Source: Actinomycetota bacterium (GTDB taxonomy: Bacteria > Actinomycetota > Acidimicrobiia > Spongiisociales > UBA11373). Taken from it: a stretch of 48,147 nucleotides of DNA. The notes beneath the pieces were generated by a model. The model was not told the origin of the DNA, ran no database searches, and saw nothing but the letters and a program-made list of their open reading frames with translations. Shown here in pieces: positions 10,148 to 22,447 of this stretch. The position numbers and the translations under genes were made by a program. Positions within the stretch are counted from its first letter, which is position 1. Each line of letters starts with the position of its first letter. The stretch covers positions 1 through 48,147 of the forward strand of contig JAHLKU010000017.1 in assembly GCA_020444505.1 (NCBI GenBank), in the 5' to 3' direction.

Positions 10148-11125
10148 ATGAGCACCCGACGCTCACACGACCCGGGCATGAAGCAGCAGCTCAAGGGCCG
10201 GCGCCGCCCCCTCGAGGGCAGCATCGTCGTCACGCTGTTCGTGATGGGGGCGATCTCGATCGCCATCACGCTCGGCATCCTCTGGGAGCTCGGCAAGGAG
10301 TCGCTCCTCTTCTTCGGGGAGGACGAGGTCTCCCTCTGGAGCTTCCTCACCAGCACCAACTGGTCTCCGCAGAGCGGCACGGCGGGATCGTTCGGCATCT
10401 GGCCGCTGATCCTCGGCACCGTCTACATCACGGTGATCGCCCTCATCGTCGCCGTCCCCATCGGCCTCGCCTCGGCCGTCTACCTCTCCGAGTACGCCAG
10501 CCCCCGGGTGCGCGGGTTCCTCAAGCCGGCCCTCGAGGTGCTGGTCGGCATCCCCACCGTGGTGTTCGGCTTCTTCGCCATCACCTTCATGACCCCCATC
10601 CTGCGCAGCGTCTTCGGCACCAGCACGGTCGGCTTCTTCAACGTGCTGTCGGCGGGCATCGTGGTCGGACTCCTCATCGTGCCGCTCATCAGTTCGCTCG
10701 CCGAGGACGCCATGGCCGCAGTGCCCGCCTCGCTGCGCCAGGCCGCGTACGGCGTGGGGGCCTCGAAGCTCGAGGTGTCGCTGCGCATCGTGTTCCCCGC
10801 CGCCCTCTCCGGCATCGCCGCCGGCGTCGTCGTGGCCATGTCGAGGGCGGTCGGTGAGACGATGGTGGTCACGCTGGCCGCAGGCGCCTCACCCAGGAAC
10901 TTCAACCTGGGGAGCGACTCGATCTTCGGGCACATCCTGAACCCGTTCCAGGGCGCGCAGACGATGACCGGCTACATCGCGGTCACCGCCAGCGGCGACC
11001 TCTCCTACAACTCCCTGGACTACAACTCGATCTTCGCCATCGGCCTCACCCTGTTCTTCATGACGCTCGGCCTCAACGCCCTGAGCAGGCGCATCGTCAA
11101 GCGCTTCCGGCAGGAGTACGAATGA
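10148..11125 (+). CDS. pstC: Phosphate ABC transporter permease PstC
   Basis: Inner-membrane permease (325 aa), ATG with GAGGAG upstream. Six membrane helices are visible, with a periplasmic loop after the first that contains [20 protein letters not shown], a typical PstC motif. Other landmarks are [17 protein letters not shown] and the coupling loop [19 protein letters not shown]. It pairs with PstA in the membrane. The stop overlaps the pstA start by 4 bp (ATGA at 11122-11125). Confidence 0.94.
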
Positions 11126-12492
11126 GCGCCGACACCGGCCGGCCGGTCGACCGCAATTTCCCCACAGAGGACGAGTACCAGGTGCTGTTGGGCAAGCGCA
11201 CCCGACGCGGCACCACCGCCAAGTTCGGCTTCCTGTTCCTCCTCTCCCTCGCCGTGCTGGGCCTGGCGGTGCTGCTGATGACCATCATCAACGACTCGTT
11301 CGGCCTGGTCGCTGTGGTGAACCAGCAGGAGCCCGAGGAGATCGTCGCCTCGCTCGGCTACGACCCCGGCGAGGTCACGCTCGAGTCGCTCAGCAAGGAA
11401 GACCTGGTGACGGTCCTGGCGGGCGGCATCAGCAACGGCGTCGGGCGCCGCCTGGAGCGCGAGCAGCGCTTCTTCGAGGACCGCCTCGCCTTCGAGACAC
11501 AGGACAAGTGGGACGAGGTGTGCGCCTCCGACGAGCCGCCGGCAGGCTGCAGCGGTGGCGCCCGCAGCCAGGGCGACGTCCTGCTGCTGGTGAAGGAGCG
11601 GATCGTCCAGCCCGACATCATCGCCTCGTACGGCTTCTTCAACTCGATCTTGGGAGGCAACGCCTTCAAGGACGACATCGCCGGCATCTTCGAGAACACC
11701 CCGGAGCGCTGGCCCGACTACACGTTCGACGAGGTCCGGTTCCAGTGGCGGGCGTGGCTCAACATGACCTTCGTGACCACGCCGTCGAGTTCGATCCCCG
11801 AGCTCGCAGGCATCCGCACCGCCATCCTCGGCTCGGCGTGGCTGGTGCTGTTCACGGTGCTGTTCGCCGTCCCGGTGGGGGTGGGGGCGGCGATCTACCT
11901 CGAGGAGTTCGCCAAGAAGAACCGCATCAACGACTTCATCCAGACGAACATCAACAACCTCGCCGGCGTGCCTTCGATCATCTACGGCATGCTGGGCCTG
12001 GCCGTGTTCGTCAGGCTGCTCGAACCTCTGACCCAGGGGAGGACGGTGATCAGCGCCGGCCTCACCCTGGGCCTGCTCACGCTGCCGGTGGTGATCATCT
12101 CGTCCCAGGAGGCGATCCGGGCCGTCCCCAACTCGCTGCGGCAGGGCGGCATGGCCCTCGGGGCCACCAAATGGCAGACGGTGCGCAGCCACGTGCTGCC
12201 CGTGGCCGTCCCCGGCATCCTCACCGGCACGATCCTGGCGGTCGCCAGGGCCATCGGCGAGACGGCGCCGCTGATCCTCGTCGGCGCCGCCGGGTTCATC
12301 ACCGTCGACCCGACCGGGCCGTTCTCGCAGTTCACGGCCCTGCCGATCCAGATCTTCCAGTGGGCGTCGTTCCCGCAGAAGGAGTGGCAGAACATCGCCG
12401 CCGCGGCGAGCCTGGCGCTCCTCATCATGCTGCTGCTGCTGAACGCGGTGGCCGTGATCCTTCGCAATCGATACAGCAGGAGAATGACCTGA
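11122..12492 (+). CDS. pstA: Phosphate ABC transporter permease PstA with a long extracytoplasmic insertion
   Basis: Second phosphate permease (456 aa, against about 300 in E. coli). After a ~33-residue cytoplasmic N-terminus comes TM1 (~34-56). A ~175-residue extracytoplasmic segment (57-231) follows, with two cysteines at 134 and 143, then the standard permease core: [35 protein letters not shown], coupling loop [20 protein letters not shown] and [16 protein letters not shown]. Some PstA proteins carry an N-terminal DUF3333 domain in a comparable place; whether this is the same domain cannot be judged here. Its stop overlaps the pstB start by one base (TGATG). Confidence 0.92.
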
Positions 12493-13397
12493 TGAGCGAC
12501 CAACCAGTGACCACGGGCGAGGACGCCGCCGGGGCGGCCGGGGAGATCCGTCCGGGCATGGCATTCTCCGGCGGGTTCCGCGGCGCGGGCGAGGGGGTGC
12601 CCGAGGAGCTGAGGCCGGGCGTCATCGAGACCCGCGGCATGAACGTGTACTACGGCGACTTCGAGGCCGTGTCGGGCATCGACCTGAACTTCCAGTACAA
12701 CGAGATCAGCGCCCTCATCGGGCCGTCGGGGTGCGGCAAGTCCACCGTGCTCCGCTCGCTCAACCGGATGAACGACCTGATCCCGTCGGCCCGCACCGAG
12801 GGCGAGGTGATCTACCACGGCGAGAACATCTACGCCCCCGGGGTGGACCCGGTCGAGATCCGGCGGCGGCTGGGGATGGTGTTCCAGAAGCCCAACCCGT
12901 TCCCCAAGTCGATCTACGACAACATCGCCTGGGGCGTGAAGATCAACGGGTTCAAGGGCAGCAGGGCCGACATGGACGACGTGGTGCAACGCGCTCTGGA
13001 GCAGGCGGCGCTGTGGGACGAGGTGAAGGACAAGCTCAAGGAGAGCGGCCTGTCGCTGTCCGGCGGCCAGCAGCAGCGGCTGTGCATCGCCCGCGCCGTG
13101 GCCACCCAGCCCGACGTGGTGCTGATGGACGAGCCGTGCTCGGCGCTCGACCCCATCGCCACGCTGCGCATCGAGGAGCTGATGCTGGAACTGAAGAAGG
13201 ACTACAGCATCATCATCGTCACCCACAACATGCAGCAGGCCGCCCGGGTCTCCGACCGCACCGCCTTCTTCAACGTCGAGTTGGACAACAGGGGCATGCG
13301 GACCGGCCACCTGGTCGAGTTCAGCCCCACCGACCTGTTGTTCACCAACCCGAAGCAGACCCAGACCGAGGACTACATCACCGGCCGCTTCGGCTAG
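12492..13397 (+). CDS. pstB: Phosphate ABC transporter ATP-binding protein PstB
   Basis: Cytoplasmic ATPase (301 aa). It has Walker [10 protein letters not shown], then the PstB-specific [19 protein letters not shown]-loop [20 protein letters not shown]; signature [14 protein letters not shown]; Walker [14 protein letters not shown]; and the [18 protein letters not shown] segment unique to this family. The N-terminus carries ~45 extra residues, low-complexity and Gly/Ala-rich, before the ATPase fold. No phoU or phoPR follows, so the regulators of this operon lie outside the window. Confidence 0.95.
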
Positions 13398-13431
13398 CCC
13401 CTACGATCCCCCTGGGCTGCCGGAGGGAGAC

Positions 13432-14298
13432 ATGGAGCGAATCGGGTTCATCGGGACCGGGGTCATGGGCCTGCCCATGGCGGGGCACCTGCTCGACGCC
13501 GGGTACCCCCTGGGAGTGTTCAACCGCACGCCGGAGCGCGCCGCCCCGCTGCTGGAGCGGGGAGCGGTGTGGCACGACGACCCGGCCTCGGTCGCGTCGG
13601 CCTCCGATGTGGTGGTCACCATCGTCGGCTTCCCCGCCGACGTGGAGGAGGTGTACCTCGGTGGCGGAGGCGTCCTCGCCCACGCCGCGGAGGGTGCCCT
13701 GGCGATCGACATGACCACCTCCAGCCCGTTGCTGGCGCGGCGGATCGCCGAGGCGGGGGAGGAGCGCGGCGTCGCCGTGCTGGACGCCCCGGTCTCCGGC
13801 GGCGACACGGGGGCCCGCAACGGCACGCTGGCGATCATGGTGGGCGGTGACGAGGACGCGTTCGGCCGGGCGCTCCCGCTGTTCGAGGCCATGGGGTCGA
13901 ACATCACCCGCCTCGGCGGCCCCGGCGCCGGGCAGTACACCAAGATGTGCAATCAGATCGCGATCGCCTCCGGCATGGTCGGCGTCTGCGAGTCGATGCA
14001 CTACGCCCGCGCCGCCGGCCTCGACCCGGCCCGGGTGGTCGAGACCATCGAGAAGGGCGCCGCCGGGTCGTGGTCGCTCAGCAACCTGATGCCCCGCGCC
14101 ATCGCCGGGGACTTCGCCCCCGGGTTCAAGATCAAGCACTTCGTGAAGGACCTGCGGATCGCCCTCGACTCGGCCGTCGAGATGGGCCTCGACCTGCCGG
14201 GGCTGACGATGGCACACGCCCTCTACGCCGCTCTCGAGGCCGCCGGTGAGGGCGAGGACGGCACCCAGGCGCTGCTGCGGCGGTACGAGCAGGAGTAG
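13432..14298 (+). CDS. NAD(P)-dependent beta-hydroxyacid dehydrogenase (HIBADH/GarR family)
   Basis: Cytoplasmic oxidoreductase (288 aa). N-terminal Rossmann motif GFIGTGVMGLPMAGHLLDAG; substrate-binding DAPVSGGDTGARNGTLAIMV; catalytic Lys in GAGQYTKMCNQI; helical C-terminal dimerisation domain. These are the family signatures of 3-hydroxyisobutyrate dehydrogenase, tartronate-semialdehyde reductase and related enzymes. ATG start with GGAGGGAG upstream, 34 bp after pstB, so read-through from pst is possible though the functions are unrelated. The precise acid oxidised or reduced cannot be told. Confidence 0.88.
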   Translation: MERIGFIGTGVMGLPMAGHLLDAGYPLGVFNRTPERAAPLLERGAVWHDDPASVASASDVVVTIVGFPADVEEVYLGGGGVLAHAAEGALAIDMTTSSPLLARRIAEAGEERGVAVLDAPVSGGDTGARNGTLAIMVGGDEDAFGRALPLFEAMGSNITRLGGPGAGQYTKMCNQIAIASGMVGVCESMHYARAAGLDPARVVETIEKGAAGSWSLSNLMPRAIAGDFAPGFKIKHFVKDLRIALDSAVEMGLDLPGLTMAHALYAALEAAGEGEDGTQALLRRYEQE

Positions 14299-15102: not shown

Positions 15103-15855
15103 CTACGGCACGCTCCAGGCCGGGACCAGCAGGTACGCCTCGGCGATGGTGACGGTGCCGCCGTAGCCGACGACGACCGGCGCCCACCCGTCGGTGGGCC
15201 AGGCGGCTTCGCGGATGATCCCCACCGGTTCGGCCGACTGGCTCACCGGCGCCGCTGCGGCGAGGAACTCACCATCCTGGCGGGCCAGCACCAGCCACAG
15301 GCCGGTGCCCGCCGGCGCCGCGGCCACCGGGTCGCCGCCCTGCTCTTCGGCGCCCTCGTACACGCTGGACCCCAGGGCACCGCCGGAGACGACGACGCCC
15401 CAGCTCCGGTACTCGTCGGTCCCCGGCAGGCCGCGGTCGAAGGCGACGCGGAGCACCCGGCCGCTGCCCTGGTAGGTCAGCCGCAGCACCAGCGCCCACG
15501 CCTCCCCGGACTCGGAGGGAACGTCCACCACGACGGGTGACGACGGCGACCCGCGCAGGACCACGGTCCCGTCCTCCAGCGCGCCGTCGTCGGTGCGCCA
15601 CGGCCCGAGGGAGCCGTCGAACGTGTCGGCTTCGATCGTCGCCACCACGTCCCTCCCGCCGAGCACGTCGAGGACCCGGTCGGGGACCGCGTCGGGCGCA
15701 GGGTCCGGCTGCTGGGCGGACGCCGCCGGGGTGGAGCCGGCGGCGACGGCGTTCGGGGACCACGACGGCGTGAGGAAGACGGCGGCCGCGGCGAGCGTCC
15801 CGGCGGCGAACAGGAACAGCGGGAGCGCCGAACGGTGGGCATCGGAGGCGCTCAT
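15103..15855 (-). CDS. Exported or membrane-anchored beta-rich protein, third gene of the pentapeptide-repeat operon
   Basis: A 250-aa protein. Residues ~10-28 are a hydrophobic signal or anchor (LPLFLFAAGTLAAAAVF), followed by an Ala/Pro/Asp-rich linker. From about residue 75 there is a beta-sandwich-like domain (ATIEADTFDGSLGPWRTDDG, then SWGVVVSGGALGSSVYEG) resembling the concanavalin-like lamin-G/DUF1080 shape: the strand order and the 'F.....GPW' opening fit, but the match is by eye only. Its ATG comes one base after the stop of the repeat protein, so it is translated from the same message. It is likely located outside the membrane with that protein. Confidence 0.6.
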   Translation of the reverse strand: MSASDAHRSALPLFLFAAGTLAAAAVFLTPSWSPNAVAAGSTPAASAQQPDPAPDAVPDRVLDVLGGRDVVATIEADTFDGSLGPWRTDDGALEDGTVVLRGSPSSPVVVDVPSESGEAWALVLRLTYQGSGRVLRVAFDRGLPGTDEYRSWGVVVSGGALGSSVYEGAEEQGGDPVAAAPAGTGLWLVLARQDGEFLAAAAPVSQSAEPVGIIREAAWPTDGWAPVVVGYGGTVTIAEAYLLVPAWSVP

Positions 15856-15856
15856 G

Positions 15857-17911
15857 TCATCCCCCCTCGAGGCTCAGGTCGCAGTTGCGCAGCGTCGCCG
15901 ACCCGCTCGCCGAGGTGGTGGTGCCGTTGTTGTCGGTGACGTAGGCGGTCAGGCTGATGGTGGCGTCGGCGTCCACGGTGTCGGTGTCGAACGGCCCGAT
16001 CGAGGCGATCCACACGTCGGGCCCGTCGTTGGTCATCGGTGTGGACCCGAGCCGGGAGCCGACCCTCCACGACAGGCTCACCGACTGGACGTCGCCCGGA
16101 CCGGCCGAGGCGGGCTGCCCGTTCACCTCACGGTCGACCCACAGCGCGATCTGGGTGGTGAAGGGTCCGTCGCACTGCTGCTGGCCGTTGTAGGAGAACG
16201 ACTCCTCCAGGGATGTCGGTCCCTCGACGTCCACGGCGGATGCCACGACGCTCTCACCCGACGAGGGCGGGGGCGGCGGCACCGTGGTCACGGTGGTCTG
16301 GGTGGGCCCGCCCGGCGGCTCTTCCGGCGGCGGGGGCGGCGAGGACGGGATGGTGGTGGAGGTGGTCGTGGTCGTGTCCGACGGCTGGGGCCCGGTGGGC
16401 ACCTCGGGGCCCAGCGAGAAGAGGAACTCGCCGGGGGTGGTGTCCGCCACGATCACGCCGTCGCGGGTGGGCGGGTCGCAGTACTCCCACCGGTCGGCCA
16501 CCTCGTTGTAGATCTTGCCGTTCACACACAGGCGGGGCGGCTCCGGGATCGGTTGCACCACCGGCTCCCAGTTGGTCACCCATCTCTCGTTGACGGCGCG
16601 GCACCCGGCGAGGGCGAGGTCGGGGTTCTGCAGCATCGCCGCCGCCTCGATGAACCTGCGCTGCCCGGCCTCGGCGTCGTTGGTGACGCCGGCCATCGCC
16701 TTGAACGGACGTTGCTGGAGGTCGGTGAACTGCGCCCCCGAGTCGGTCGAGACGGGACCGTCGTACTGCGCCAGCACGGCCGACGACAGTCCGGACGTCA
16801 GTGGTCCCGGCGCCAGGCCGGCCGCCACCTGGAGGCGGCTCGATTCCATGGTCAGCATCTCGGCCGGGATCGCCTCCGCCGGGATGGCGTTGGAGGGGAT
16901 GCCGTTCGACGGGATGGCTTCGGCCGGGATGGCCTCGGCCGGGATGGCTTCGGCCGGGATGGCTTCGGCCGGGATGGCCAGGATGGGCACCGAGTTGCTG
17001 GGGATCCCGAGGGAGGCCAGCAGGTCGTCGGGCACCGGGGCCTCGTTGCTCGGGATGGCACCGCCGGACAGGTCGATCAGCCGCAGGAACTGGTCGTCGG
17101 ACAGGCCCACCTGGTTGGAGGGGATGGCGTTGGAGGGGATGGCGTTGGAGGGGATCGCCTCCGCCGGGATCGCTTCGGCCGGGATGGCTTCGGCCGGGAT
17201 GGCTTCGGCGGGGATCGCCAGCGCCACGCCGTTGAAGTCGACGACCATGCGCGCACGCGTGTCGCCCTCGTCGACGGCCCAGGTGTAGACCACGGCGTAC
17301 TCGCTGCCGTCGCCGTCGGTGACGGTGAACGATCCGCCCACGGGCCCCCTGGTGTAGCGGGAGGCCAGCCACTCGGCGGAGACGACCCCCGACGGGCGCC
17401 CGGCGGCGGAGTTGTCGGGGATCATGCCGACGGGGATCTCGTCGATCGGGATCGCAGATGCGGGGACGGCAGTGGCCGGTTCGTCGCTCTGCAGCCGCAC
17501 GTTGGCCATGACGCCGCCCTGCTGCAAGAGGCTCGAGGCCCCGATGGCGTAGACGAGACCGTTGGCCCGGAAGACGGCGTGGACGGCGCCGTCGATGTCG
17601 GCCCACACGTAGCGGAAGTCGTCGAGGAGGGTGGCGTCGGGGGCGTGGGTCCCCTCGATCGCATCGATGATGGTGTCCTCCTGGGGCACCGCCACGTCGA
17701 AGAGGCCGCAGGACACGTTGTAGCCGGGCGAGACGCCCTCCAGGGCGGCGATGGTGAGGTAGGTGGCCAGGAGCCCTGCGGGGACCACGGCGGCCCATTT
17801 CATGACCAGCATGCGGGCCCGCTTGGCGCCGAGGAATCCGCGGCTGAGGCTCTTGCGGAGCCCGCGCAGCATGGAACGGGTCGTCTCGACCCACTCGGTG
17901 AAGGCGCTCAC
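15857..17911 (-). CDS. Membrane-anchored surface protein with AIPAE/AIPSN pentapeptide repeat arrays
   Basis: A 684-aa protein of no family I recognise. GTG start overlapping the upstream stop (GTGA). Residues 1-35 are basic and cytoplasmic; ~36-56 form one membrane anchor (MKWAAVVPAGLLATYLTIAA). Outside come a ~90-residue domain, degenerate repeats at 153-167 (AIPID, EIPVG, MIPDN), and a beta-rich part. Array A (232-266) is four AIPAE then three AIPSN; one AIPSN is at 285-289; array B (312-351) is four AIPAE, AIPSN, GIPSN and two AIPAE. Then follow a helical domain (~352-445), a Cys-containing strand pair, a Thr/Pro-rich stalk (~510-550) and a C-terminal beta domain (~555-684) with Cys at 580 and 677. 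No LPXTG-type sorting signal is seen. Confidence 0.75.
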   Translation of the reverse strand: MSAFTEWVETTRSMLRGLRKSLSRGFLGAKRARMLVMKWAAVVPAGLLATYLTIAALEGVSPGYNVSCGLFDVAVPQEDTIIDAIEGTHAPDATLLDDFRYVWADIDGAVHAVFRANGLVYAIGASSLLQQGGVMANVRLQSDEPATAVPASAIPIDEIPVGMIPDNSAAGRPSGVVSAEWLASRYTRGPVGGSFTVTDGDGSEYAVVYTWAVDEGDTRARMVVDFNGVALAIPAEAIPAEAIPAEAIPAEAIPSNAIPSNAIPSNQVGLSDDQFLRLIDLSGGAIPSNEAPVPDDLLASLGIPSNSVPILAIPAEAIPAEAIPAEAIPAEAIPSNGIPSNAIPAEAIPAEMLTMESSRLQVAAGLAPGPLTSGLSSAVLAQYDGPVSTDSGAQFTDLQQRPFKAMAGVTNDAEAGQRRFIEAAAMLQNPDLALAGCRAVNERWVTNWEPVVQPIPEPPRLCVNGKIYNEVADRWEYCDPPTRDGVIVADTTPGEFLFSLGPEVPTGPQPSDTTTTTSTTIPSSPPPPPEEPPGGPTQTTVTTVPPPPPSSGESVVASAVDVEGPTSLEESFSYNGQQQCDGPFTTQIALWVDREVNGQPASAGPGDVQSVSLSWRVGSRLGSTPMTNDGPDVWIASIGPFDTDTVDADATISLTAYVTDNNGTTTSASGSATLRNCDLSLEGG
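16859..16978 (-). repeat. 15-bp coding tandem repeat, array B (8 units)
   Basis: Eight uninterrupted 15-bp units encode the pentapeptides AIPAE x4, AIPSN, GIPSN, AIPAE x2 (residues 312-351 of the repeat protein). On the plus strand the unit reads like GGCCGGGATGGCTTC. Units differ mostly at third codon positions, so the array is old or selected at protein level rather than freshly duplicated, although a few adjacent copies are nearly identical. Confidence 0.9.
17114..17218 (-). repeat. 15-bp coding tandem repeat, array A (7 units)
   Basis: Seven uninterrupted 15-bp units encode AIPAE x4 then AIPSN x3 (residues 232-266). The three AIPSN units are almost identical in DNA (plus strand GTTGGAGGGGATGGC), suggesting recent unit duplication. 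A further single AIPSN unit lies at 17045-17059. The order AIPAE block then AIPSN block is shared with array B. Confidence 0.9.
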
Positions 17912-18573
17912 GCGCCGGCCCTCCGGGCGGGCGCGACCATCAGGAGGGTCGCGGCCACGACCGTGGCGTACACGCCGATGCCGATGAACGAGAGCAGCGA
18001 CTCGGTGGTGCCGGCCTGATGGAGGAACCGTCCCCACTGCACCACGACGGCCACGGCGGCAGCCAGCACCACGAAGGCGATGCCCTTGCGGAGCCACGTG
18101 AGCGACGGCACGAAGACCAGTGCGAGCAGGATGGCTGCGGCCGCCAGCAGCGGGATCCCGAGATTCAGGGAGTCAGTGGGTGCCTGCAGGTCGTAGAGGA
18201 ACGGCGTGGGGATGTCCCACGCCCTGGCGATCCGGTACGGACTGTCGATCCACGGGAACAGGCCTGCCACGACGAGGACGGCGACCGCCCACAGCGCCGC
18301 CGCCGGCGGCCGAGGGATGGTGATGCCGTCTCCCCTCTGCGCGGCTGGGGCCGGGGCGGCCGCCGGTGCCTGGGGCGCGGCGGCCGCGGCCGGGGGAGAT
18401 TGGGGATCGGCGGCGGGGGTGGCCGCCGTTGCGACGGCGGGTTCCGCGGCCGCAACGGGGCGTGCGGGCGCTTCCGTCTCCGCCCGGGTCTGGGCGGTCC
18501 CGCATTCGTCGCAGTACCGGGCGTCGGTGCGGATCGGGGCCCCGCACTCGGCGCACTGCATCGCAGCATTCAC
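17908..18573 (-). CDS. Zinc-ribbon membrane protein, first gene of the pentapeptide-repeat operon
   Basis: A 221-aa protein. The N-terminus is a single zinc ribbon (CAECGAPIRTDARYCDECG, two CxxC knuckles) facing the cytoplasm. A ~65-residue Ala/Pro-rich linker follows, then four hydrophobic helices: AALWAVAVLVVAGLFPWI, GIPLLAAAAILLALVFV, IAFVVLAAAVAVVV and FIGIGVYATVVAATLLMVA. The zinc ribbon-linker-membrane layout is common in Actinobacteria for proteins of unknown role. Its TGA overlaps the GTG of the repeat protein, so the two are made together and may interact in the membrane. Confidence 0.7.
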   Translation of the reverse strand: MNAAMQCAECGAPIRTDARYCDECGTAQTRAETEAPARPVAAAEPAVATAATPAADPQSPPAAAAAPQAPAAAPAPAAQRGDGITIPRPPAAALWAVAVLVVAGLFPWIDSPYRIARAWDIPTPFLYDLQAPTDSLNLGIPLLAAAAILLALVFVPSLTWLRKGIAFVVLAAAVAVVVQWGRFLHQAGTTESLLSFIGIGVYATVVAATLLMVAPARRAGA

Positions 18574-19412: not shown

Positions 19413-20393
19413 ATGAAGGCGATCATCCACCGGGCGTTCGGCGCCCCCGACGAGGTCCTGGCTCTGCAGGACGCCGACACCCCGCAGCCCGCCGACGGCG
19501 AGGTGCTGGTGAAGGTGGCTGCGGTCGGGTTGGCGAAGGGCGACTGGCTCATCTCCGAGGGCCTGCCCTACGTGGCCCGCCCGTCGTACGGCATCCGCAC
19601 CCCCAAGGAGCGGGTTGCCGGGCTCGAGATGGCCGGCACCGTCGAGGCCGTAGGGCCCGGCGTCGCCCACTTCGCCGCGGGGGACCGGGTGTTCGGCTGG
19701 GCCAAGGGCGCCCTGGCCGAGTACGCCGTCGCCGCCGAGGACGGCCTGGCCACCATGCCGGAGGGCGCGTCCTTCGAGGAGGCGGCGGCCGTGCCGGTGT
19801 CCGGGCTCACCGCCCTGCAGGCCGTTCGGGACTCCGGCGAGGTGGCGGCAGGGCAGCGGGTGCTGGTGATCGGCGCCTCGGGGGCCGTGGGGTCGTTCGC
19901 CGTGCAGATCGCCGCGTCGCTCGGTGCCGAGGTGACCGGCGTGGCCGGCACCCGCAACCTCGACCTGGTGCGCTCGCTCGGAGCGACACACGTCGTGGAC
20001 TACACCAAGGACGACGCCACCGCCGAGGCCGACCGGTACGACGTCATCATCGACATCGCAGGCAACACCCCGCTGCGGAGGCTGCGGCACGCCCTGGCTC
20101 CCAAGGGGACGCTCGTCATCGTCGGCGGCTCCGGCGGCAAGGCCACCATGGGCTTCGGCAGGACGATCCGGGCGGCGCTGCTGTCGCCGTTCGTGGGCCA
20201 GCGCCTCCGGCCGCTGATCTCCAAGCCCAACCCCGCCGACCTGGAGGCCCTGGGACGGCTGATCGAGCGTGGAGACCTCCGCCCCGCCGTCGGCAGCACC
20301 TATCCGCTGGAGCGGGCCGCCGAGGCGATCGGATCCATCGGCGCCGGCCGGACCACCGCCAAGACCGTCGTCACCGTCGGCGCCGCTGCGTGA
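19413..20393 (+). CDS. Zinc-independent MDR-family NAD(P)-dependent oxidoreductase (quinone-reductase-like)
   Basis: A 326-aa medium-chain dehydrogenase/reductase. GroES-like N-terminal half (MKAIIHRAFGAPDEVLALQD, GDRVFGWAKGALAEYAVA) and a Rossmann half with VLVIGASGAVGSFAVQIAAS, then DVIIDIAGNTPLRRLRHALA and GTLVIVGGSGGKATMG. It lacks the structural-zinc cysteine cluster, which fits the NADPH:quinone reductase subgroup. ATG with AGGAGGGG upstream. It is the first gene under the TetR-controlled promoter, so it probably handles a quinone, enone or other reactive compound sensed by the repressor. Confidence 0.87.
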   Translation: MKAIIHRAFGAPDEVLALQDADTPQPADGEVLVKVAAVGLAKGDWLISEGLPYVARPSYGIRTPKERVAGLEMAGTVEAVGPGVAHFAAGDRVFGWAKGALAEYAVAAEDGLATMPEGASFEEAAAVPVSGLTALQAVRDSGEVAAGQRVLVIGASGAVGSFAVQIAASLGAEVTGVAGTRNLDLVRSLGATHVVDYTKDDATAEADRYDVIIDIAGNTPLRRLRHALAPKGTLVIVGGSGGKATMGFGRTIRAALLSPFVGQRLRPLISKPNPADLEALGRLIERGDLRPAVGSTYPLERAAEAIGSIGAGRTTAKTVVTVGAAA

Positions 20394-20422
20394 GCGCCCC
20401 TACCCCAGAGAGGACCCACCCC

Positions 20423-21166
20423 ATGACCACGACCACCACCGAGGAGCGGATCGAGCGGAGGGCCAGGGCCGCCGGCATCCTGTACCTGCTGCTCGTCCTC
20501 GTCGGCCCGTTCGCCCTGCTGCTGGGCCGCTCGGCGATGCTGGTGCCCGACGACGCCGCGGCCACGGTCGCCAACATCGTCGAGAAAGAGGGCCTGTTCC
20601 GGATGGGGATGACCGCCGAGGTGGCGATCATCCTCATCGAGGTGGTGCTGACCGCCCTCCTCTACACGATCACCCGCCCGGTCAGCCGCTCGCTGTCGAT
20701 GGCGGCGATGCTGGCGCGGTACGGCATGGTGATCGTGATGGCCGTCAGCCTGGCGACCGGCTTCCTGGCCCTCGCCGCCGCCGACGGCGCCGGCTACCTG
20801 GCCGGGTTCGACGCCGCCGGGCAGGGCAGCCTGGCCGCCATGTTCCTGGAGGCGGGCGAGTACCTCATCACGGCGTGGGGGTTCCTGTTCGGCATCCATC
20901 TGGTGCTGCTCGGCCACCTGGTGCGCCGCTCCGGGTTCTTCCCGGCGGTGCTGGGGGTGCTGCTGATGGTGGCCGGGGCCGGGTACCTGCTGGAGAGCTT
21001 CGGCGCGATCCTGTGGACCGGTGGCGAGAGCATCCTGGCCACCGTGGTGATCGTGCTGGCCATCCCCGGCGAACTGGGCTTCCCGCTGTGGCTGCTGATC
21101 AAGCGGCTCGATGGATCCGCCTGGAAGACCAGGGCGCTGGAGGCCGCTGCCGAACCGGCCGCCTGA
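20423..21166 (+). CDS. DUF4386-like integral membrane protein
   Basis: A 247-aa protein with about six membrane helices. Opening RRARAAGILYLLLVLVGPFA, middle EVAIILIEVVLTALLY and later GFLFGIHLVLLGHLVRRSGF plus LGVLLMVAGAGYLLESF are the usual DUF4386 landmarks. ATG start with AGAGAGGA upstream, 29 bp after the oxidoreductase, so it is the second gene of the TetR-controlled unit. The biochemical role of the family is not known; co-regulation suggests a membrane part in the same stress response. Confidence 0.78.
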   Translation: MTTTTTEERIERRARAAGILYLLLVLVGPFALLLGRSAMLVPDDAAATVANIVEKEGLFRMGMTAEVAIILIEVVLTALLYTITRPVSRSLSMAAMLARYGMVIVMAVSLATGFLALAAADGAGYLAGFDAAGQGSLAAMFLEAGEYLITAWGFLFGIHLVLLGHLVRRSGFFPAVLGVLLMVAGAGYLLESFGAILWTGGESILATVVIVLAIPGELGFPLWLLIKRLDGSAWKTRALEAAAEPAA

Positions 21167-21186
21167 GCCGGTCCGATCGTCGAGAC

Positions 21187-21216
21187 GACGGGGCCCGCCG
21201 CACGGCGGGCCCCGTC
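21187..21216. terminator. Bidirectional terminator hairpin
   Basis: GACGGGGCCCGCCG, two-base centre CA, then the exact complement CGGCGGGCCCCGTC: a 14-bp stem. It lies between the convergent DUF4386-like and MFS genes and overlaps the MFS stop codon by two bases. There is no T tract in either direction, as is common for high-GC actinobacterial terminators. Confidence 0.7.
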
Positions 21217-22447
21217 ACGTCGGCAGGGCCGCCTCCCGCGCCTCCCGGCGCCCCGCCCAGCGGACCACCGCCAGCGCCACGAGGCCGGAGCCGAGGAACC
21301 CGATGGCCAACGGGTACACGGTGCCGTCGTAGGCGGCGTCGATGACCCCGCCGAGCAGCGCCCCGACGCCCGTCTGGGCCGTCCCGATGAGCGCCGAGGC
21401 GGTGCCCGCCACGGCCCCCATCGGCTCCATCGCGAGCGCGAACAGGTTGGGGACCATGAAGGCGTGCAGGCACAGCAGGCCGGCGAGCGGGGGGCCGAAC
21501 GCCCAGAACGAAGGGGTGCCGCCGGAGGCGATGGCGATCGCCATCAGCACGGTGCCCCCGATCGCGTACCCGACGATCACCCGCCGGGCGATGACCGCCG
21601 AGCCGAACCGGCGCACCACGGCGGCATTGGTGAGGGTGGCGAGGCCCATCAGCGCGGCGTTGGCGCCGAACACCAGCGGGAACCAGGAGCCGAGGCCGAA
21701 CACGTCGTCCACGATCAGTTCCAGCGACGCCAGGTACGACATGAATGCCCCGAACAGGGCGGTGGCCGCCAGGGCGTAGGCCATCGCCGGCCGCTGGGCC
21801 ACCACGGTGCGGGCCGCCCTCCGCACCCCGTCGAACCGCAGATCGATGCGCGACGCCGGGTCCAGGGTCTCCGGCAGCCGGGCCACCCAGACCGCCATCG
21901 CCGCCACCACGGCCACGCAGAACCAGAACACGGCGCGCCAGGGGGCGACCGAGACGATGGCGGCGCCGATGCTGGGGGCGATCACCGGCACCAGGATGAA
22001 CACGGCGGTGAGCAGCGACATGGTGCGGGCCATCTCGTCGCCCCGGTAGGAGTCGCGCACGATGGCCATCGAGACCACGCGCGGGCCGGCAGAGCCGACG
22101 CCCCACAGGAACCTGCTGGCCAGCAGCATCCCGAACGAGGGCGCCGCGGCCGCTCCCACCGCTCCCAGCGCGTAGAGGCCGAACCCGGCGTACAGCACCG
22201 GCTTGCGGCCGAAGCGGTCCGAGATCGGCCCGTACAGCAACTGGGCGACGGCGAGGCCGATGAAGAACACGGTGACGATCTGCCCGGTGGCGGGGGAGTC
22301 GGGTGCCAGGTCGAAGCCGGCGCGGATCTCTCCGAACGCCGGCAGCATCAGGTCGATGGCCAGGGCCGTCAGCGCCATCATCAGCGCCAGCATCGCCAGG
22401 AACTCGCGGCGGCCGATCCGCCGGGCTGGGGGTGATGCCGTGCTCAC
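21215..22447 (-). CDS. Bcr/CflA-type MFS drug efflux transporter
   Basis: A 410-aa, 12-helix major facilitator. The Bcr/CflA signature LALMMALTALAIDLMLPAFG is in TM1, followed by the MFS loop motif GPISDRFGRKPVLYAGFGLY between TM2 and TM3 and GVGSAGPRVVSMAIVRD in TM4-5, close to the drug:H+ antiporter motif C region. GTG start with GGAGG upstream. Expected role is proton-driven export of drugs or small metabolites. It is the gene after the CotH-like lipoprotein, but a possible hairpin between them suggests separate units. Confidence 0.88.
   Translation of the reverse strand: MSTASPPARRIGRREFLAMLALMMALTALAIDLMLPAFGEIRAGFDLAPDSPATGQIVTVFFIGLAVAQLLYGPISDRFGRKPVLYAGFGLYALGAVGAAAAPSFGMLLASRFLWGVGSAGPRVVSMAIVRDSYRGDEMARTMSLLTAVFILVPVIAPSIGAAIVSVAPWRAVFWFCVAVVAAMAVWVARLPETLDPASRIDLRFDGVRRAARTVVAQRPAMAYALAATALFGAFMSYLASLELIVDDVFGLGSWFPLVFGANAALMGLATLTNAAVVRRFGSAVIARRVIVGYAIGGTVLMAIAIASGGTPSFWAFGPPLAGLLCLHAFMVPNLFALAMEPMGAVAGTASALIGTAQTGVGALLGGVIDAAYDGTVYPLAIGFLGSGLVALAVVRWAGRREAREAALPT

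Follow-up and report, generated by a model that had tools for sequence, protein, structure and literature searches.

Tandem I/L-P pentapeptide arrays in a probable surface protein of Acidimicrobiia and their recurrence in a remote bacterial genome

The window analysed here comprises 48,147 nucleotides of contig JAHLKU010000017.1 (assembly GCA_020444505.1) from an acidimicrobial member of the Actinomycetota. It includes a three-gene operon that codes, in this order, for a zinc-ribbon protein with several predicted membrane segments, a protein with pentapeptide arrays (the array protein) and a predicted secreted protein (Table 1). The product of the first gene matched Pfam Zn_Ribbon_1 at E 1.6e-5, just under the family cut-off, and its hydropathy profile shows several hydrophobic segments. 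The third gene begins directly after the stop codon of the array gene.

Table 1. Features of the operon and of the array protein (positions in the window; residues of the array protein).
Feature	Position	Strand	Residues or length	Basis or remark
Operon gene 1, zinc ribbon and several hydrophobic segments	17908..18573	minus		GTGA overlap with array gene
Array gene	15857..17911	minus	684 aa, GTG start	ORF and translation, syntenic homologue in G011
Single N-terminal hydrophobic (predicted TM) segment	17732..17812	minus	about 34-60	hydropathy and charge
First strand-strand-NG-strand module, no array, FRYVWADIDGAVHAVFRANGLVYAIGASSLL	17525..17617	minus	99-129	kept in G011; strands in low-confidence model
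Degenerate IP units AVPAS AIPID EIPVG MIPDN	17411..17470	minus	148-167	
Second strand-strand-NG-strand module	17207..17302	minus	204-235	ends in IPAEA, leads into array 1
Array 1, AIPAE x4, AIPSN x3	17114..17218	minus	232-266	
Lone AIPSN unit	17045..17059	minus	285-289	
Array 2 with in-register lead, GIPSN SVPIL AIPAE x4 AIPSN GIPSN AIPAE x2	16859..17008	minus	302-351	
Pro/Thr-rich linker	16256..16393	minus	about 507-552	translation
C-terminal beta domain	15884..16264	minus	about 550-676	conserved in G011, 37% over 123 aa
Operon gene 3, N-terminal hydrophobic segment and beta-rich predicted secreted domain	15103..15855	minus	250 aa	hydropathy, G011 homologue

Translation confirmed the two AIPAE/AIPSN arrays that an earlier sequence-only reading had placed at residues 232-266 and 312-351. 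TRF detected 15-bp arrays at 17114-17218 and 16859-16979, the same stretches, and four consecutive AIPxx codon units occurred six times in the window against a mean of 0.00 in 100 dinucleotide shuffles. AIPAE accounts for 10 of the 15 window units. Array 2 proper occupies residues 312-351, and the GIPSN-SVPIL stretch ahead of it (residues 302-311) is in register with it, giving ten in-register [x][IV]Pxx units. The single units reported earlier were also present, the second as GIPSN at residues 302-306 instead of IPSN at 303-306, and so were the degenerate IP units, but these begin at residue 148 rather than 153; their counterpart in the G011 homologue described below is a full AIPSN/AIPAE array. 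The two arrays have the order AIPAE then AIPSN in common, as had been noticed, but the whole-block duplication proposed from this order found no support in the DNA: in-register mismatches between the arrays were no fewer than under any of the 48 within-type permutations, and units were equally alike between the arrays (1.38 differences) and within them (1.33).

The N-terminus ahead of the hydrophobic segment carries a net charge of +7, and the array protein would accordingly be oriented N-in with the remainder outside. Together with the MopE repeats of a homologue, the segment and the charge agree with the earlier view of a membrane-anchored and probably extracellular protein.

The same operon, with the same order and orientation of genes, was present in Acidimicrobiia bacterium OFTM344 (JAJCYA010000086.1; G011), which belongs to the same family as the window genome (E 1.7e-30, 8e-41 and 2.8e-11 for genes 1, 2 and 3). 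The G011 array protein (L015:7312-9771, minus strand) is homologous over its full length, has 23 IP steps and combines AIPSN-type and ALPSS-type arrays within one protein. Between its arrays and its C-terminal domain lie two metal-binding repeats of the MopE type, which the window protein does not have. The sequence-only reading had held that absence of the arrays from all close relatives would indicate a local sequence accident; the G011 homologue carries them, and the arrays are not such an accident.

The array gene family was not found beyond these two genomes among 14 genomes of the family and 138 of the order, and a scan of 85k genomes confirmed no close homologue of the whole array protein. 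Neither was the protein found in plasmid and phage collections, nor the AIPSN/AIPAE pattern in viral contigs. Across 397 sampled genomes of the phylum to which the window belongs, AIP[SA]x was confined to the window genome except for a single match in G660, which reads as AIPGA/AIPGS. Homologues of the zinc-ribbon protein in three genomes (G008, G012, G349) had no adjoining arrays. Weak matches in G001, G016, G040 and G054 appeared to be low-complexity or other-frame readings. The flanks of the operon (window 11000-14030 and 19540-22420) match different contigs in relatives, and because of this the operon looks accessory and may lie where the genome is variable, contig breaks limiting the inference.

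A second array locus was detected in the window genome on contig C30 (L016:4579-8734). There, a paralogue of the zinc-ribbon protein (34%, E 1.1e-8 against operon gene 1) immediately precedes an array protein that starts with a signal-like sequence and contains a PASTA domain as well as 38 units of ALPSS and one of ALPAS. Array loci of the AIPSN/ALPSS type thus directly follow a zinc-ribbon membrane protein in all three cases in the window genome and G011. The sequence-only reading had missed that the pentad belongs to a wider set (AIPSN, AIPAE, ALPSS, ALPAS, ALPAN) common to several proteins and phyla.

Outside the Acidimicrobiia, the pentads were found in Deltaproteobacteria bacterium RIFOXYA12_FULL_61_11 (MGSU01; G395). 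This genome was reached by a pattern scan of named genomes combined with frame checks, and the taxonomic spread obtained is a lower bound. The scan gave at least 115 stretches; among the matches listed, most could be put down to chance or to antisense reading, often of short frames, and MGSU01 and JAJCYA01 (G011) were taken as true AIPSN-type arrays. One other genome of the class and phylum of G395 was searched and had no arrays.

At least three consecutive A[IL]P[SA]x units were present in 24 of the 25 loci examined in G395, and a lipobox-like motif (loose pattern) in about 20 of the 25. A beta domain at the N-terminus is common to many of the paralogues (16 rows aligned), and their C-terminal domains differ, including Ig-like, FGE-sulfatase, FG-GAP and CarboxypepD_reg domains. 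In the window protein, the C30 protein, G011 and G395 alike, the runs border on a surface domain, which is not the same one each time. The G395 arrays come after a short strand ending in I/L-P, and in many a [YFW][FLY]L strand begins soon after the last unit. Their length ranges from 3 to 13 consecutive units among paralogues and varies where the flanks align. Two paralogues (L276, L279) have degenerate units only, which we count against the explanation favoured below.

The G395 arrays resemble those of the window in their pentads (AIPSN, ALPSS, ALPAS), in the short strand followed by an I/L-P lead-in and in the coupling of residues 2 and 5, so that the window arrays share both the units and the coupling of the G395 type. 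They differ in sitting in lipoproteins with other domains, and no zinc-ribbon partner was noticed in the loci that were read. A G395 profile matched the window arrays at E 1e-16, the matches being limited to the array columns and a short lead-in, and hhalign joined window and G395 proteins over a repeat-like segment only (probability 31-36%). Since homology outside the arrays was not demonstrated, the common architecture could be convergent. As far as we found, the A[IL]P[SA]x arrays of G395 are undescribed.

The coupling associates I at residue 2 with N, E or D at residue 5, and L with S or A. The counts were 38:4 versus 37:112 in G395 and 39:2 versus 1:44 in the Acidimicrobiia proteins, though units within one array are related by duplication and not independent, so that significance is overstated. 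It is notable that one coupling rule is found in both remote lineages. At the codon level, units differed far more at third than at second positions (0.38 versus 0.03 in the window, 0.46 versus 0.00 in C30 and 0.57 versus 0.15 in G011). The distinct 15-mers numbered 10, 21 (among 39 units) and 19, respectively. The unit pattern conditions this test on A, I/L and P, which leaves residues 4 and 5 as the freer test; residue 5 is Ser throughout in C30. We read the concentration of variation at third positions as selection on the peptide. It speaks against a DNA-level feature, either a contingency-locus minisatellite or a mobile 15-bp repeat of which the peptide would be a by-product, and so do the differences among most 15-mers and the occurrence of one peptide in genomes of differing codon usage (GC3 0.94 versus 0.68). 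The in-frame 15-bp periodicity and the presence of many copies within a single genome, in genes unrelated to one another, would fit such a feature, which we nevertheless regard as very improbable.

Among known five-residue repeats, the pentapeptide-repeat proteins (PRPs; Pfam PF00805/PF13599) resemble the arrays in repeating a unit of five residues in tandem, with a hydrophobic residue at a regular place. Their consensus is [S,T,A,V][D,N][L,F][S,T,R][G], with Leu or Phe at the centre (PMC8145042). AIPAE and AIPSN contain neither residue, and no window unit has the consensus centre in any register; the best registers agree with three to four of the five positions of the broad 2019 consensus but lack its L/F centre. 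At least eight contiguous PRP-consensus units were not found, the window arrays having seven (array 1) and eight units (array 2; ten with the loose ones), none of the PRP type. The arrays also differ from PRPs in having Pro in every unit, in being often shorter than eight units and in matching no profile: none of the window, G011, C30 and G395 proteins tested matched a Pfam or NCBIfam pentapeptide family. Judged by its sequence, the window protein is not a canonical pentapeptide-repeat protein, failing on both consensus and profile.

Elastin-like VPGXG repeats likewise have a five-residue unit with Pro and may form successive turns. The window pentads have no VPG, Gly being absent from them save in two GIPSN units, and a further contrast is that, in its model, the G395 array forms a loop within a beta domain that is folded. 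The earlier opinion that neither the canonical pentapeptide-repeat nor the elastin-like register fits thus holds, as does the one that the arrays belong to no recognised repeat family, with no match in Pfam, NCBIfam, the PDB or the literature searched. A literature search for the array strings returned no description, and libraries of defence systems, phages and NCBIfam gave nothing useful.

Arrays of the form P[LVF]xxI were observed in giant secreted proteins of Acidimicrobiia (L018:3054-14153, L017:2031-9683, L288, L290, L291, L293, L296, L022), reading PLGAI, PLSAI, PFSAI, PVSSI or PVNSI and being nearly uniform per genome. The pentads often alternate with D/E/Q-L-x-x-[STA] units, and no Pfam repeat exceeded its threshold. 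These arrays have the P-x-x-[A/S]-I register in common with those of the window and come from the same class of bacteria, and profiles of the window family gave weak matches to them (G345, E 6.6e-11). They differ in being much longer, with ten-residue alternations and a hydrophobic residue after Pro, and in lying in frames of about 1800-4200 aa with lectin or Ig-like domains. They may represent a further branch of the repeat class to which the window arrays belong, undescribed as far as we found. Separately, 15-bp-periodic arrays at L006, L010 and L020 read VFPDQ, VVPLQ and GVPGP in one frame, possibly as the antisense of another pentad.

The PFSAI giant protein had a sub-threshold match to Pentapeptide_4 (23.5 bits, cut-off 38), and the interspersed DLSGV-type units can be read as [I/V][P/D][L/F]xx. 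Both these points, like the five-residue period with its regular hydrophobic residue, would suit a divergent pentapeptide-repeat (Rfr) beta-helix in which I/L-P-x-x-A units form a quadrilateral solenoid and Pro replaces Asp or Asn. This fold appears improbable given the absence of the L/F centre and of Pfam pentapeptide matches, the many arrays of fewer than eight units and a structure model of the G395 array that shows no solenoid.

That AF2 model was constructed of a G395 domain (L216:254-1165, mf3591930fb30; 16-row alignment) and reached pLDDT 78.9 and pTM 0.77. The flanking beta domain was mostly at pLDDT about 78-97 and the array (query residues about 147-215) at 37-64; at this low confidence the array joins the predicted strands 139-143 and 219-228 without forming a solenoid. 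The AlphaFold model of the window protein, based on a two-row alignment, was too poor (pLDDT 35) and was discarded, the strands of its C-terminal beta domain being mostly at 50-71. A strand-strand-NG-strand lead-in similar to that of G395 occurs twice in the window protein. Because a short, three-residue helical turn directly follows some of the I/L-P steps in both models, the models suggest, from low-confidence stretches, that what is multiplied in the array is a turn motif closing a strand, P-x-x-A-[I/L]. The G395 domain itself is a largely confident predicted beta domain with no PDB match by fold or sequence; the fold search gave no match below E 0.06, and the low-confidence loop of the query may blunt it.

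The arrays might also be passive, proline-ordered spacers that hold domains apart or off the membrane, their uniformity resulting from repeat homogenisation. This is in line with the free variation in unit number among the G395 paralogues, with the location of arrays between folded parts and with the different yet internally uniform units (PLGAI, PLSAI, PVSSI, PVNSI) of giant proteins of the same order, as homogenisation predicts. Recent homogenisation, however, fails to explain the identity of the peptide, because units within one gene differ in synonymous spelling, as the 15-mers of C30 illustrate. The coupling of I with N and of L with S in two remote lineages also counts against a spacer, as does the presence of a distinct Pro/Thr-rich linker elsewhere in the window protein. 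We consider a spacer function unlikely, but worth serious attention. Ala/Ser/Pro-rich regions are known to act as acceptors of O-glycosylation in other bacteria, and ALPSS, ALPAS and AIPSN, all with Ser next to or near Pro, occur in surface proteins; the arrays could thus be acceptor sites of surface lipoproteins. As a main role this is disfavoured because AIPAE units have neither Ser nor Thr, which is also true of ALPAN, AIPAN and ALPAA in G395, and we hold it to be quite improbable.

The explanation we favour, if tentatively and at somewhat less than even confidence, is that the pentads are a turn motif built into a surface loop of variable length, which serves as a shared multivalent recognition element. 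The motif P-x-x-[A/S]-[I/L] would stand at the end of a short strand in a beta module exposed at the surface (strand - G - strand - NG - strand - I/L-P-x-x-A), and copying of its five residues in place would produce tandem units and thus a loop projecting from a membrane-anchored protein outside the cell. Such loops would serve as a peptide tag, bound in trans by a partner or scaffold that they share on the surface of the cell, and not as passive spacers. Recognition is suggested by the retention of the same few pentads, as peptides, in many otherwise unlike surface proteins of a genome, and by the coupling of residues 2 and 5. It is favoured over a spacer because many proteins and remote lineages keep the peptide, whereas the number of units varies freely. 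Also in its favour are the operon conserved with G011, the second zinc-ribbon and array locus, the recurrence in G395, the third-position codon bias, the loop position in the G395 model and the turns after I/L-P steps; the poor model of the window protein weighs on the other side. The window's array protein would have as partners the zinc-ribbon membrane protein encoded upstream and the small secreted protein encoded downstream.

A broader and rather doubtful proposal, to which we give slightly less credence than to the spacer, is a genome-wide peptide tag by which the loops of surface proteins are gathered by one putative reader (an adhesin, a scaffold, or a sorting or modifying enzyme), a scheme that transfer or convergence would have established in two or more phyla. 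Short tandem repeats are common in surface proteins, but the reuse of one motif in two dozen different surface proteins of a genome, together with coupled residues inside the unit and peptide-level selection, is unusual and, as far as we searched, undescribed. The system supplies a defined peptide and a two- or three-gene operon for asking what reads the motif.
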